A stretch of DNA of 64,000 nt from Pannonibacter carbonis (GTDB lineage Bacteria; Pseudomonadota; Alphaproteobacteria; Rhizobiales; Stappiaceae): contig NZ_PUDR01000006.1 in the NCBI RefSeq assembly GCF_003012935.1, positions 124,001 through 188,000 on the forward strand. Reading direction: 5' to 3'. Positions within the stretch are counted from its first letter, which is position 1, and each line of letters begins with the position of its first letter. The notes beneath the pieces were generated by a model. It saw only the letters and a list, made by a program, of their open reading frames with translations. It was not told the origin of the DNA and searched no databases. Positions 14,063 through 40,699 of this stretch are shown here, in pieces. Position numbers and translations under genes: made by a program.

Positions 14063-14091
14063 TTGTGGAACACAGTGAGAACGAGTAATCT
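14063..14091 (+). promoter_or_regulatory. lexA promoter
   Basis: A -35 element TTGTGG (14063-14068), a 17-bp spacer and a -10 element TAATCT (14086-14091) lie about 40 bp before the lexA start codon. The SOS box at 14068-14082 covers the spacer, so LexA would block its own transcription. Confidence 0.75.
14068..14082 (+). promoter_or_regulatory. SOS (LexA) box of lexA
   Basis: GAAC-ACAGTGA-GAAC is an exact match to the direct-repeat LexA box GAAC-N7-GAAC that is characteristic of alphaproteobacteria. It lies 51 bp before the lexA ATG and overlaps the promoter, indicating autoregulation. Confidence 0.9.
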
Positions 14092-14132: not shown

Positions 14133-14849
14133 ATGCTGACCCGCAAGCAACACGAACTGCTCATGTTCATCCATGAGCGCCTGAAGGAAAGCGGCGTTCC
14201 GCCCTCCTTCGACGAGATGAAGGACGCGCTCGACCTCAGGTCGAAGTCCGGCATTCACCGGCTGATCACCGCGCTTGAGGAGCGTGGCTTCATCCGCCGC
14301 CTGCCCAACCGGGCCCGTGCCATGGAAGTGGTTCGCCTGCCGGACTCCATGTCTCCGGGCCTTGCTGCCCCGCGCGGCAAGGGCTTTGCCCCGTCCGTGA
14401 TCGAGGGATCGCTCGGCAAGACCCAGCCTCCCGCGCCCGCCCGTTCCGAGCCGGAGCCGGCCAGCGGCATCACCAGCATTCCGGTGATGGGCCGGATCGC
14501 GGCCGGTGTGCCGATCGAGGCGATCCAGACCCACAGCCATACCATCAACGTGCCGCAGGACATGCTGGGCCGCGGCGAGCATTTCGCGCTGGAAGTGCGC
14601 GGCGACTCGATGATCGAGGCCGGCATTCTCGACGGCGACACGGTGCTGATCCGGCGGACCGATGCGGCCGAGAGCGGTGACATTGTCGTCGCCCTTGTCG
14701 ATGACGAGGAAGCCACCCTGAAGCGCCTGCGCAAGAAGGGGGCCTCCATCGCGCTGGAAGCGGCCAACCCGGCCTACGAGACCCGTATCTTCGGCCCCGG
14801 CCGTGTGCGGGTCCAGGGCAAGCTGGTGGCATTGTTCCGCCAGTACTGA
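14133..14849 (+). CDS. lexA: LexA repressor (SOS response)
   Basis: This 238-residue repressor blocks SOS genes until it self-cleaves with RecA after DNA damage. The N-terminal winged helix ([20 protein letters not shown], then [18 protein letters not shown]) binds DNA. A linker (residues 70-110) leads to the peptidase domain with the Ala124-Gly125 cleavage bond in RIAAGVP and the Ser159 (RGDSM) and Lys197 (ATLKRL) dyad. Everything needed is intact. Its own SOS box lies upstream, and two more boxes occur at 39768-39782 and 39843-39857 in this window. The ATG at 14133 was preferred because LexA proteins start at the MLTRKQ helix. Confidence 0.96.
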
Positions 14850-35979: not shown

Positions 35980-38900
35980 TCACGCCATCTGCACGTCAGT
36001 GACGCCCGGAACGGCCTTCAGGGCGCCGGCGATTTCCGGGGACAGGCGGTATTTGCCGGGCAACCTTACCTCGACCTCGCGCTTGCCCTCGTCCAGCAGC
36101 AGGACGACATTCACCTCGCCCTCCCCCTTGGTCGACAGATGACGGGCCAGGCTCTTCATCGGCCGGGCGTCGCGCAGGAACACCCGCAGGCTCTTCTGCA
36201 CGCGTGCGGCCATGGTCTCGATCGGATCAACCTGCTCGATTCGCACCGAGGGCTCGTCATCGCGCATATCAGAGCTGACGAGGACCACCATCGACTTGCC
36301 GACCTCGATCACATCGCGGAACTGGGCCAGCTTTTCGGAGAACAGCAGCGCCTCGAACTGGCCGGTGGCATCCGAGAAGCGGACAATGCCCATGCGATTT
36401 CCGGACTTGGTCTTGCGCTCCTGCTTGGAGACGACCGTGCCGGCGAGACGGCCGGCGGATGCGCCCCGTTTCACGGCCTCTGAGAACTGCGCCCATGGCT
36501 GCACCCGCATCCGTTCGAGCAGAGGCTGATATTCATCGAGCGGATGGGAGGACAGATAGAAGCCAATGGCCTGATGCTCCCGTTGCAAGCGCTCGGCCGG
36601 CAGCCAGCCCGAGACCTCGGCCAGTTGCAACTCATCCCCTGCCCCACCACCGCCGCCGCCGAACATGTCGTTCTGGCCGACCGTGGCATTGGCTTCCGTT
36701 CGCTGCGCCTGGCCGATGATTCGCTCAAGCCCTTCAAAGACGCGGGCGCGATTCGGCTCAAGGCAATCAAAGGCGCCAGCATTGACGAGACTTTCCAGGA
36801 CGCGCTTGTTCAGGAACTTCGGCGAAATGCGCGAGGCAAAATCGCCAAGGCTCTTGAAGGGCCTGTCGCCGCGCACATCGACGAGATGCTGGATCGCCTG
36901 TTCGCCCGCCCCCTTGATGGCGCCCATGGCATAGACGATGCGGCCGTTGTCGACGTCGAAGGGCACCATTGATCGGTTGATCGACGGCGCGAGCACCTCG
37001 ACGCCCATGCGCCGGGCCTCTTGGCGGAAGTCGCCCAGCTTGTCGGTGTTGCCCAGATCGAGCGTCATGGACGCGGCCAGGAACTCGACCGGATGGTTCG
37101 CCTTGAGCCAGGCCGTGTGGTAGGAGACCAGCGCATAGGCGGCAGCGTGTGACTTGTTGAAGCCGTAGTTGGCGAATTTCGCCACGAGGTCGAAAATCGT
37201 GCCGGCCTGGTCCTTGTCGACGCCGCGCTCGACGGCGCCATCGACGAAGCGGGCGCGCTGCACCTCCATTTCGGCGGCGATCTTCTTGCCCATGGCGCGG
37301 CGCAGCAGGTCAGCCTCGCCAAGCGAATAACCGGAGAGCACCTGCGCGATCTGCATCACCTGTTCCTGATAGACGATGATGCCGTTCGTCTCGGTCAGGA
37401 TCGGCTCCAGCAGCGGATGCAGGTAGTCCGGCTCCTGTTCGCCATGCTTGACGGCGTTATAGACCGGGATGTTCTCCATCGGACCCGGGCGATACAAGGC
37501 CACCAGAGCAATGATGTCCTCGAACCGGTCCGGCTTCATGCCGGCGATGGCCCGGCGCATGCCCTGGCTTTCCAGCTGGAACACGCCGACGGTCTCGCCT
37601 GCCGCCAGCAGCTTGTAGGTCTTCGGATCATCAAGCGGGACCGCTGCCATGTCGACATGTATGCCCTTGCGGGCGATCAGCTTTACTGCCGTGTCGATGA
37701 CGGTAAGGGTCTTCAGGCCCAGGAAGTCGAACTTCACCAGTCCGGCTTCCTCCACCATCTTCATGTTGAACTGCGCCACCGGCATGTCGGAACGCGGATC
37801 ACGATAGAGCGGGACAAGCTGCTCCAGCGGACGATCACCGATCACCACGCCTGCGGCGTGGGTCGAGGCGTGGCGATAGAGACCTTCAAGCTTCTGGGCC
37901 ATCGCCAGTAGCCGCTCGACGCTTTCCTCGTCGCGCGCGGCCTCACGCAGGCGCGGCTCCTCCGCGATGGCCTGGGCGAGGGTTACCGGATTGGCGGGAT
38001 TGGCCGGGACCAGCTTGCACAGACGGTCGACCTGGCCATAAGGCATCTGCAGCACGCGGCCGACGTCACGCAGCACCGCGCGGGCCTGTAGCGACCCGAA
38101 CGTGATGATCTGCGCCACCTGGCTGCGGCCGTATTTCTCCTGGACGTAGCGAATGACCTCTTCGCGCCGGTTCTGGCAGAAGTCGATGTCGAAGTCCGGC
38201 ATCGACACGCGTTCCGGATTGAGGAAGCGCTCGAACAGCAGCGAGAACCGCATCGGGTCGAGGTCGGTGATGGTCAGCGCCCAGGCGACCACGGACCCGG
38301 CACCCGAACCACGGCCCGGGCCAACAGGAATGTCATGCGCCTTGGCCCACTTGATGAAATCGGCCACGATCAGGAAGTAGCCGGGAAACTTCATCCGCTC
38401 GATGACCGACAGTTCGAAATCGAGGCGGTCCCAATAGTCCTTCTCGGTCAGGTCAGGGGCAAGGCCGTGGGCAGCCAGGCGCATGGCCAGACCTTCGCGG
38501 GCCTGGCGTCTCAATTCATCGGCTTCTGCCTTCTCCGCTTGCTCGGGATCGGCATCGGCACCGGCAAAGCGCGGCAGAATCGGATCGCGCTTCAGCGGCC
38601 GGTAGTGGCAGCGCCGCGCGATCTCGAGCGTGGCGTCGCAGGCCTCCGGCAGATCGGAGAACAGCGCAAGCATCTCGGCACGGGACTTGAAATAGTGTTC
38701 CGGCGTCAGCTTGCGCCGGTCATCATCAATGAGCACCCGGCCTTCCGAAATCGCGATGAGGGCATCATGGGCCTCATAGTCGTCGCGCTTGGGAAAGAAG
38801 GGCTCGTTGGTGGCAACGATGGGAAGGCCCTTGTCATAGGCCAGATCGAGAAAGCCCGGCTCGGTCTTCCGCTCCGCGGCCATGCCGTGACGCTGCAGTT

Positions 38901-39426
38901 CCACATAGCACCGCCCGTCGAAGGCTGCGGCCAGGCGGTCGAGGCGGGCTGCCGCAAGCTTGTGGTTGCCCGTTAGCAGCGCCTTGCCGACCGGGCCATG
39001 AACACCACCAGTCAGAAGGATCAGGCCGGCAGCACGCGATTCCAGCAATGCCAGCGGCACATGCGGGTGCTGGCCAGTCGGCGTCTCCAGGAACGCCCGG
39101 CTCGTCAGTTCCATGAGGTTCATGTAGCCCTGCTCGCTCATGGCAAGCACAACCACATCGCTCAAGGCGGGTTCACCGCGCCGATCATCGCCGGCTTCAT
39201 CGTCAAAGGCCACCGCGAGTTGGCAGCCGATGATCGGCTGGATACCGGAGCCCCAGGCCTTGCCGGCAAATTCCTGCGCCCCGAACAAGTTGCCGGTGTC
39301 CGTGATTGCCAGCGCGGGCTGACCGTCCGCCTTGGCAAGATCAAGCAGCTTCTTGATCGGCAGCGCCCCTTCCAGCAGGGAAAGGGCGGAGTGAACGCGA
39401 AGGTGGACGAAGCCGATCTCGGACAT
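35980..39426 (-). CDS. dnaE: DNA polymerase III alpha subunit
   Basis: The 1148-residue replicative polymerase starts MSEIGFVHLRVHSALSLLEGALP at ATG 39426. An N-terminal PHP domain is followed by the polymerase core with catalytic Asp residues in PDFDIDFCQNRREEVIRYVQ, fingers (GAGSVVAWALTITDLDP), a helix-hairpin-helix region (INRSMVPFDV, then FDCLEPNRARVFEGLE), and an OB fold (AGTVVSKQERKTKSGNRMGIVRFSD). Length is that of DnaE1, not of the SOS-type DnaE2/ImuC. The frame is open upstream but the N-terminal family motif fixes the start. No clear promoter was seen in the 157 bp before it, so it may be read from the small SOS-controlled gene upstream. Confidence 0.96.
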   Translation of the reverse strand: MSEIGFVHLRVHSALSLLEGALPIKKLLDLAKADGQPALAITDTGNLFGAQEFAGKAWGSGIQPIIGCQLAVAFDDEAGDDRRGEPALSDVVVLAMSEQGYMNLMELTSRAFLETPTGQHPHVPLALLESRAAGLILLTGGVHGPVGKALLTGNHKLAAARLDRLAAAFDGRCYVELQRHGMAAERKTEPGFLDLAYDKGLPIVATNEPFFPKRDDYEAHDALIAISEGRVLIDDDRRKLTPEHYFKSRAEMLALFSDLPEACDATLEIARRCHYRPLKRDPILPRFAGADADPEQAEKAEADELRRQAREGLAMRLAAHGLAPDLTEKDYWDRLDFELSVIERMKFPGYFLIVADFIKWAKAHDIPVGPGRGSGAGSVVAWALTITDLDPMRFSLLFERFLNPERVSMPDFDIDFCQNRREEVIRYVQEKYGRSQVAQIITFGSLQARAVLRDVGRVLQMPYGQVDRLCKLVPANPANPVTLAQAIAEEPRLREAARDEESVERLLAMAQKLEGLYRHASTHAAGVVIGDRPLEQLVPLYRDPRSDMPVAQFNMKMVEEAGLVKFDFLGLKTLTVIDTAVKLIARKGIHVDMAAVPLDDPKTYKLLAAGETVGVFQLESQGMRRAIAGMKPDRFEDIIALVALYRPGPMENIPVYNAVKHGEQEPDYLHPLLEPILTETNGIIVYQEQVMQIAQVLSGYSLGEADLLRRAMGKKIAAEMEVQRARFVDGAVERGVDKDQAGTIFDLVAKFANYGFNKSHAAAYALVSYHTAWLKANHPVEFLAASMTLDLGNTDKLGDFRQEARRMGVEVLAPSINRSMVPFDVDNGRIVYAMGAIKGAGEQAIQHLVDVRGDRPFKSLGDFASRISPKFLNKRVLESLVNAGAFDCLEPNRARVFEGLERIIGQAQRTEANATVGQNDMFGGGGGGAGDELQLAEVSGWLPAERLQREHQAIGFYLSSHPLDEYQPLLERMRVQPWAQFSEAVKRGASAGRLAGTVVSKQERKTKSGNRMGIVRFSDATGQFEALLFSEKLAQFRDVIEVGKSMVVLVSSDMRDDEPSVRIEQVDPIETMAARVQKSLRVFLRDARPMKSLARHLSTKGEGEVNVVLLLDEGKREVEVRLPGKYRLSPEIAGALKAVPGVTDVQMA

Positions 39427-39583
39427 GACAACGGGACCCGGTAAGAGAGAACCATCCTGTCCCGTAACCGGAGCCAGGATGATCAGCCGTTTGTCCCTTT
39501 GACATGCCCTGAAGCGGGGGGAGATGTCGAGCTGCGATCCGGCCGGAGACGACCCGATCCAGAGGTTCCTGCGCCGGCGGGCC

Positions 39584-39682
39584 TCAGTTGAACGCCAGCA
39601 GAACCTCTCCCCAGACAGCAATGGTGGCGGCGAAAACAACGAGCGAACCGAAAGCGGCGATATCGCGGGCCAGGAAAGTCAT
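39584..39682 (-). CDS. SOS-regulated 32-residue membrane peptide, candidate SidA-like cell division inhibitor
   Basis: A 32-codon gene with an excellent ribosome site (GAGAGGAG, six bases before ATG 39682). The product begins MTFLARDIAAFGS, with a positively charged N-terminus, and continues as one hydrophobic helix (about residues 9-31) containing a single Trp-Gly-Glu (WGE) before the end LLAFN. It is a single-pass inner-membrane peptide. The promoter (TTGTCA, 17 bp, CAATCT) is overlapped by a perfect LexA box at 39768-39782. In Caulobacter the 29-residue SidA, an SOS-induced inhibitor that binds FtsW, is encoded, as I recall, immediately beside dnaE, the same position as here. Homology is inferred from context and architecture, not from alignment. 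Confidence 0.75.
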   Translation of the reverse strand: MTFLARDIAAFGSLVVFAATIAVWGEVLLAFN

Positions 39683-39762
39683 GGCATGCTCCTCTCTTTC
39701 GAACCGGCAGCTCCGCTGCCTCGGGTTCCGTGGTCTGGGGCCGCAGCGGCCCCTTGGTCACC

Positions 39763-39791
39763 AGATTGTTCCCTTTTTGTTCTTTTGACAA
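39763..39791 (-). promoter_or_regulatory. SOS promoter of the 32-residue peptide gene
   Basis: Minus-strand -35 TTGTCA (complement of 39786-39791), 17-bp spacer, -10 CAATCT (complement of 39763-39768). The LexA box fills the spacer. Transcription would start near 39756 and give a leader of about 75 bases. Confidence 0.7.
39768..39782 (-). promoter_or_regulatory. SOS (LexA) box upstream of the 32-residue peptide gene
   Basis: On the minus strand the sequence is GAAC-AAAAAGG-GAAC, an exact GAAC-N7-GAAC match, the same type as the lexA box at 14068-14082. It overlaps the -35 to -10 spacer. Confidence 0.85.
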
Positions 39792-39824
39792 GCCTCTATC
39801 GGGTCCGAAGCATCGCGGGCCCCG

Positions 39825-39857
39825 TTGTTCTCATGTGAGGGTGAACAAATAATGAAC
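39825..39857 (+). promoter_or_regulatory. Second perfect LexA box on a plus-strand promoter without a recognised gene
   Basis: GAAC-AAATAAT-GAAC at 39843-39857 is an exact SOS box. It covers the -10 (AATAAT, 39848-39853) of a plus-strand promoter with -35 TTGTTC (39825-39830) and a 17-bp spacer. The transcript would run toward the 3' end of lolD. No open frame with a ribosome site is visible before lolD, so it would be a noncoding or antisense RNA, or the box may simply aid repression of the peptide gene 60 bp away. Between this box and lolD there is only a G/C-rich inverted repeat near 39891-39904. Confidence 0.6.
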
Positions 39858-39979
39858 GGCGCCTAGTCTGGGGCGACGCACGGCCCCTTCGCCCCCACGG
39901 GGGCGGCACATGCAAGGCGCTGTGCCCCCACCTGGACCACTGGGCATCAAGGATCAGGAAAACACGGTCGCAACTGGTC

Positions 39980-40660
39980 TCAGTAATCGAGGATCAACCC
40001 GTCCCGAAGCGTGATGACACGATCCATCCGTCCGGCCAGGTCCATGTTATGGGTGGCAAACAGGGCTGCAACGCCGGTCGCCCGCACCAGCGCCTGGAGA
40101 GCGTCGAAGACATAATGGGCCGTCTGCGGATCCAGATTGCCGGTCGGCTCGTCGAGCAAGAGCAGCCGCGGGGCATTGGCGACGGCACGTGCAATGGCGA
40201 CACGCTGCTGCTCGCCGCCGGACAATTCGGATGGACGATGTGTGCCTCTGGCCCCAAGCCGCATATAAGCAAGGAGCTGGCTGGCGCGTTCGGCCGCAGT
40301 CTTTTTCGGCAAACCCTGGATCATCTGCGGCATCATCACGTTTTCCAGAGCCGTGAATTCCGGCAGGAGGTGATGGAACTGGTAGACAAAACCGATGTCG
40401 TTACGCCGGATGGTCGTGCGCGCATCATCTCCGAGCGCACCGCAAGGCTTGCCATTGACATAGACCTCACCCGAATCGGGCTTTTCCAGCAGGCCAGCGA
40501 TGTGCAGCAACGTGGACTTGCCTGTGCCCGAGGGGGCGACCAGAGCAACCATCTGACCCGCTTCAAGCGTCAGATCAGCCCCTTTCAGGATCTCCAGCGT
40601 GCCGGAAGCTTCACTGAACACACGGGTAATACCGCTGAGGCGCAATACAGACGCGGACAT
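39980..40660 (-). CDS. lolD: Lipoprotein-releasing ABC transporter ATPase LolD
   Basis: The 226-residue ATPase powers release of outer-membrane lipoproteins from the inner membrane. Walker A is [12 protein letters not shown], the Q-loop region [20 protein letters not shown] is LolD-like, the signature is [14 protein letters not shown] and Walker B is [14 protein letters not shown] used ATG 40660 (CAGGAG upstream); an ATG at 40696 without a ribosome site adds 12 residues. It follows its permease gene. Confidence 0.93.
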
Positions 40661-40699
40661 GGACGAGGTCTCTCCTGAGGATCCGGCTAAGGCCATGGT

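Follow-up and report, generated by a model that had tools for sequence, protein, structure and literature searches.

SidA of Caulobacter is an SOS division inhibitor of 29 amino acids that resides in the inner membrane and interacts with FtsW; mutations in ftsW suppress its action (PMC4211646). At 29 residues it is a very small cell-cycle checkpoint protein. A 2026 study placed another inhibitor, YneA, on FtsW and modelled SidA on TM7 of FtsW, the latter without high confidence (PMC13396833). The LexA motif of Caulobacter, GTTC-N7-GTTC, is GAAC-N7-GAAC when read from the other strand (PMC12700426). Among the open-access literature matches listed, none described SidA in bacteria other than Caulobacter or linked it to dnaE, and an earlier mention may exist.

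The window, by which we mean the whole 64 kb stretch of DNA analysed here, contains a small SidA-like gene next to dnaE, and also lexA:

14068..14082, plus strand: LexA-type box GAACACAGTGAGAAC before lexA
14133..14843, plus strand: lexA (TIGR00498, 181 bits; at E <= 0.001 the LexA model has no other match in this genome)
35980..39426, minus strand: dnaE, DNA polymerase III alpha subunit, downstream neighbour of the peptide gene (NCBIfam NF004226, 1495.6 bits; start taken from a sequence match)
39584..39682, minus strand, stop codon included: SidA-like gene for a 32-residue single-helix membrane peptide (open reading frame, frame conserved in relatives, purifying selection)
39693-39689, minus strand: ribosome-binding site AGGAG, 6 bases 5' of the ATG (by sequence; kept in six close loci)
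39763..39768, minus strand: putative -10-like CAATCT, weak, 17 bases after the -35-like element
39768..39782, minus strand: inner LexA-type box GAACAAAAAGGGAAC, a perfect GAAC-N7-GAAC (GAAC-AAAAAGG-GAAC)
39786..39791, minus strand: -35-like TTGTCA (by sequence; TTG invariant in six close loci)
39843..39857, plus strand: outer LexA-type box GAACAAATAATGAAC, 75 bp from the inner box
39980..40696, minus strand: gene for a LolD-like ABC transporter ATPase, upstream neighbour of the peptide gene

The 32-codon gene with a good ribosome site that the earlier note had described is present, and its product is MTFLARDIAAFGSLVVFAATIAVWGEVLLAFN. The single hydrophobic helix with one tryptophan claimed for this product was also borne out: the peptide has one hydrophobic stretch (maximal 15-residue Kyte-Doolittle mean 2.26), and its only Trp is residue 24. 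None of the five peptides tried had a Pfam match. Like sidA, the gene directly precedes dnaE and shares its strand, at a distance of 157 bp (39427-39583), and no terminator-like site was found between the two on their strand; dnaE may be partly under SOS control. In the Caulobacteraceae loci read through CtrA-selected genomes (see below) the corresponding gap is mostly about 25-70 bp. The best NCBIfam match of the gene on the other side was TIGR02211 LolD (249.3 bits, below the cut-off of 307.75).

The earlier note had further proposed a sigma-70 promoter with a LexA box in its spacer, and this held in part. The inner box is perfect and is contained in the 17-base spacer between TTGTCA and CAATCT, and both the box and the TTG of the -35 are conserved in the six closest loci; since the -10 is poor and a mechanical scan of 39380-40000 found no sigma-70 promoter, we infer the promoter itself from the layout alone. 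The outer box, which had been overlooked, is also perfect and conserved in six close loci. Its distance from the inner box is 75 bp in all six closest loci (L001-L006) even though the inner box lies anywhere from 59 to 100 bp from the ATG, and this constancy suggests joint binding by LexA or a second promoter. Paired LexA-type boxes, 18-31 bp apart, were also seen before the SidA-like gene in several families (L080, L109, L154, L165, L270, L280).

A GAAC-N7-GAAC motif by itself is weak evidence in 64 kb, where four were seen against 1.63 expected and 8 of 100 shuffles had as many. Over the whole genome (4.78 Mb) there are 12 copies of the AT-rich form GAACWWWWNNNGAAC, as compared with three for a reversed control, and two of the 12 lie at this locus. 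The box before lexA sits in the spacer of TTGTGG-N17-TAATCT, a layout that matches that of the peptide gene, whose putative promoter carries its GAAC-N7-GAAC box (39768-39782), of the type also present at sidA, in the same way. It may be mentioned that lexA, with its own box, and the SidA-like gene both fall inside this one window of 64 kb. Elsewhere in this genome, perfect AT-rich LexA-type boxes stand 29-57 bp before three frames (L251, L252, L253) resembling, by eye, a glyoxalase/VOC-type protein, a DNA methyltransferase and a radical-SAM protein, which are possible further SOS genes.

Searching the window genome and 60 relatives with the peptide (tblastn, E <= 10) gave matches in 41 of the 61 genomes, several of which, lying within long frames, are probably due to chance. 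In all 30 loci fetched from this search the frame was open and preceded dnaE in the same orientation, the gap between the two reaching about 480 bp (L025), and in 27 of them a perfect box occurred no more than 250 bp upstream of the start (the exceptions being L007, L009 and L010). All but one of these loci belong to the window's own family (f1), the remaining one, L029, being from f13. With six further genomes added to the 29, inspection of the locus covered 35 of the 37 f1 genomes sampled, and all 35 have the gene upstream of dnaE; the other two, G023 and G031, gave weak matches only (with an internal stop in G023).

The substitutions in this frame follow codon structure. The six close loci make 15 pairs, of which 14 had a pN/pS of 0.07-0.34 and the last one 0.00 (two synonymous changes, zero amino-acid changes), and the differences were distributed over the codon positions as 78/16/195. 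When the window gene was mutated at random, each of five comparisons gave a probability of about 0.0005 for amino-acid changes this few, a value that represents the floor of the 2000 random-mutation trials. The ATG and the ribosome site are conserved in the same six loci, and all of 26 peptides compared (25 from f1 and one from f13) share Met1, Ala10 and Trp24. Conservation of the frame in relatives and codon-aware substitution, both of which had been set out in advance as checks on the gene, thus came out in its favor, and the frame evolves as a protein.

That SidA itself is encoded beside dnaE had been stated in the earlier note, and the Caulobacter genomes confirm it. Both in C. vibrioides DSM 9893 (L206) and in OR37 (L212), the gene immediately before dnaE encodes a 29-amino-acid peptide and follows a GAAC-N7-GAAC box; a match to the NCBIfam model NF033228, 'cell division inhibitor SidA' (72.4 bits; cut-off 35), identifies the L206 peptide as SidA. 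The same model matched 4 of 14 controls, C. vibrioides included, and exceeded its cut-off in one. To cover the family more broadly, Caulobacteraceae genomes were picked out via a CtrA query sequence and 30 dnaE upstream regions were read, one of which (L204) was cut by a contig end. A 29-residue peptide was present in 28 of the 29 readable loci, being absent from L194, and 19 of the 29 had a perfect box. Among named Caulobacter, Phenylobacterium and Brevundimonas genomes (L205-L233), a 29-30-residue peptide was seen in 28/28 readable loci (L214 was cut), the reading nearest to this length having been chosen.

The curated SidA model does not reach the window peptide: NF033228 gave no match to it at E <= 10 and none in the window genome at E <= 0.1. 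Across 385 genomes of the class it matched 27 at E <= 0.1, exceeding its cut-off only in G416, a member of the Caulobacteraceae; two other Caulobacteraceae genomes had weak matches, which in G123 fell at the dnaE locus, and of the 27 these three were the ones inspected. With five peptides tried, the model matched just the Caulobacter one, and in alignment A3 it matched 5 of 34 rows, a count equal to that of the Caulobacteraceae rows, although the matching rows were not named.

An hhalign comparison of 25 window-family peptides plus L029 (A1) with 21 Caulobacteraceae peptides (A2) returned a probability of 86.8% (E 4.3e-6) over 18 ungapped columns starting from Met1. With the 95th percentile of shuffled decoys as threshold, the window-family profile scored higher for 17 of the 22 Caulobacteraceae peptides and for 13 of the 20 other peptides linked to dnaE, and the Caulobacteraceae profile did so for 20 of 25 f1 peptides. 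Both groups begin with M-x3-A-R-[DE], and Ala10, Ser13 and Phe17 are the commonest residues at matching positions. The conserved tryptophan differs: it is Trp24 in 27/27 distinct f1 peptides and Trp19 in 21/21 Caulobacteraceae peptides with the acidic anchor, which one more peptide lacks. Peptides of other families carry both, at 19 and 24 by the automatic anchor in L068, L092, L103, L109 and L165, at 18 and 24 in L121, and again at 19 and 24 in L067 and L071, where the anchor was placed by eye (the automatic anchor had chosen another acidic residue in L067, L071, L069, L088 and L287, which were re-anchored by eye). We regard these two-Trp peptides as the best argument from sequence for common descent.

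A conserved helical face shared by the two groups was not supported, the per-position information correlating at 0.22 (P 0.14) among the 20 of 25 window-family and 21 of 22 Caulobacteraceae peptides that passed a length filter; their helical moments point 147 degrees apart, which was not significant. In the best register the mean identity between the groups is 21%, as compared with 17% for the runner-up, and the likeness of two short hydrophobic helices alone is weak evidence. The homology to SidA that the earlier note had raised is accordingly argued from synteny, the LexA-type box, size, the M-x3-A-R-[DE] start, the profile comparison by hhalign and shuffled decoys, and the intermediates with Trp19 and Trp24; on the other side stand the unmatched NF033228, the different place of the Trp, the unsupported common helical face, the narrow lead of the best register and a similarity that is modest in strength.

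To follow the gene through the Alphaproteobacteria, a class-wide search with the window-family profile was tried and set aside: at E <= 1 there were matches in 227 of 385 genomes, but most were short and lay within long frames, and only G069, G203 and G421 stood out beside G000. For this reason, dnaE was used as the anchor for inspection instead. Of 153 class genomes drawn, 119 gave dnaE (E <= 1e-60), and 110 of the upstream regions were read. A mechanical rule, asking for a perfect box and then a short hydrophobic ATG-started open reading frame before dnaE, picked out 19 of the 110, against one hit in 20 rounds of dinucleotide shuffling and two on the opposite strand. Counting L067, which has a non-ATG start, the gene occurs in 20 of these regions, spread over 16 family codes, and is absent from 90. 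Thirty further genomes, 29 of them with dnaE, added the gene in 6/6 from f1 and in 11/23 from other families of the order (L286 without a perfect box, L269 without one nearby), giving a total of 29 family codes when L029 (f13) and L036 (f27) are counted. It was seen at none of ten named loci, from Dongia, Cypionkella, Pseudorhodobacter, Elioraea and relatives (L234-L243).

Eleven peptides outside f1 and the Caulobacteraceae lack a Trp after the anchor (L099, L129, L133, L140, L145, L147, L269, L271, L280, L281 and L284). Several of these are assigned mainly by place, box and anchor, and several do not outscore shuffled decoys when compared with the SidA profiles; L269 and L281 resemble the family closely, and the others may be far-diverged members or replacements at the same site. 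The separation of dnaE-linked peptides by profile is circular for the listed hits apart from L269, as these peptides, or near copies of them, had gone into the profile. A DnaE tree was made for 83 loci, a selection in which the Caulobacteraceae had been thinned by hand to 14; on it the presence of the gene needs nine changes as compared with a shuffled mean of 27.9, and carriers lie on both sides of the midpoint root. This pattern fits an old gene that was often lost, and is compatible with several origins. The window's order is not that of the Caulobacteraceae (their kinship label is 'same class'), and the suggestion that a SidA-like gene exists in another order is thus supported, with homology evidence that is modest.

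Our preferred reading, to which we give a probability of roughly 0.75, is that the 32-residue peptide is an orthologue of SidA, much diverged, and acts through FtsW to block septal wall synthesis. The 90 of 110 class-wide dnaE regions that lack such a gene count against it. Other explanations share part of the evidence. An SOS-controlled membrane peptide of the TisB/DinQ type would depolarise the membrane and slow growth or favor persistence, with no specific target in the divisome; the size class, the one hydrophobic helix and the LexA control are as in DinQ, a depolariser (PMC3567139), and the eleven dnaE-linked peptides without Trp after the anchor, several of them at the level of shuffled decoys with the SidA profiles, would sit comfortably with such a function. 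However, the synteny with authentic SidA at dnaE, together with the M-x3-A-R-[DE] start and the Trp spacing, ties the window peptide to SidA, and we consider a toxin of this type unlikely. A dnaE regulatory leader or small RNA, in which the frame is open by chance and makes no functional protein, would agree with the position on the strand of dnaE, 157 bp ahead of it, and with the lack of a detected terminator-like site between them, but synonymous changes far outnumber amino-acid changes (the 14 pairs at pN/pS 0.07-0.34 and the 78/16/195 codon-position counts) and the ATG and ribosome site are conserved, which makes this explanation highly improbable.

A subtler alternative accepts descent from SidA and supposes that the target has shifted to another protein of the divisome or envelope, such as FtsN, or to a different surface of FtsW. 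It is proposed because the conserved Trp is displaced by five residues, from 19 in all 21 anchored Caulobacteraceae peptides to 24 in all 27 of the window family, and no conserved helical face is common to the two groups; moreover, DidA, a second damage-induced inhibitor of Caulobacter, binds FtsN (PMC4211646), and targets of such inhibitors can therefore differ. The families that have both tryptophans are, on the other hand, what would be expected from drift of a single contact surface, and we rate a shifted target as doubtful, slightly more so than a TisB/DinQ-type peptide.

If the peptide is indeed an FtsW-directed SidA orthologue, DNA damage would lead RecA to trigger self-cleavage of LexA, which would leave the box in the promoter spacer and allow transcription of an mRNA for a one-helix inner-membrane peptide of 32 residues. 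This would insert with its N-terminal R6-D7 at the cytoplasmic edge of the membrane and bind FtsW of the late divisome, as does SidA in Caulobacter, holding the FtsW/FtsI/FtsN complex inactive and delaying septation until LexA re-accumulates. The later steps are carried over from Caulobacter SidA; damage induction, membrane topology, division arrest and the FtsW target are all inferred for the window peptide.

On a wider scale, we lean somewhat towards the idea that SidA is an alphaproteobacterial checkpoint micro-gene of deep ancestry beside dnaE. The ancestor would have had two tryptophans, of which the Caulobacteraceae kept Trp19 and the window's family Trp24, with the gene being lost elsewhere and the curated model seeing just the Caulobacteraceae branch. 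Should the dnaE-linked peptides be SidA orthologues, the SOS division brake of many Alphaproteobacteria could be named at once, and their diverged helices, with Trp19, Trp24 or both, would form a natural set for mapping how a helix of 30 residues stops FtsW. The link to dnaE also raises the question of whether cells induce their replicative polymerase together with the division block.

Several described systems resemble the window gene in part. TisB and DinQ are likewise SOS-induced small inner-membrane peptides, but they are type I toxins with antisense RNAs, DinQ depolarises the membrane, and we saw no dnaE linkage described for them (PMC3567139). YneA, SosA and ChiZ are small membrane division inhibitors of other bacteria; ChiZ differs in having a LysM domain, with a topology that resembles that of YneA, and SidA was modelled on the opposite side of TM7 (PMC13396833). 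DidA of Caulobacter is also a small single-helix division inhibitor responding to DNA damage, but has 71 residues, is SOS-independent and binds FtsN (PMC4211646). Caulobacter SidA (NF033228) differs from the window peptide in its length (29 residues in C. vibrioides vs 32), in having Trp19 rather than Trp24, and in matching its model, which the window peptide, with its acidic residue at 26, does not; the two agree in being peptides of about 30 residues with one membrane helix and an M-x3-A-R-[DE] start, encoded behind a GAAC-N7-GAAC box upstream of dnaE on the same strand.
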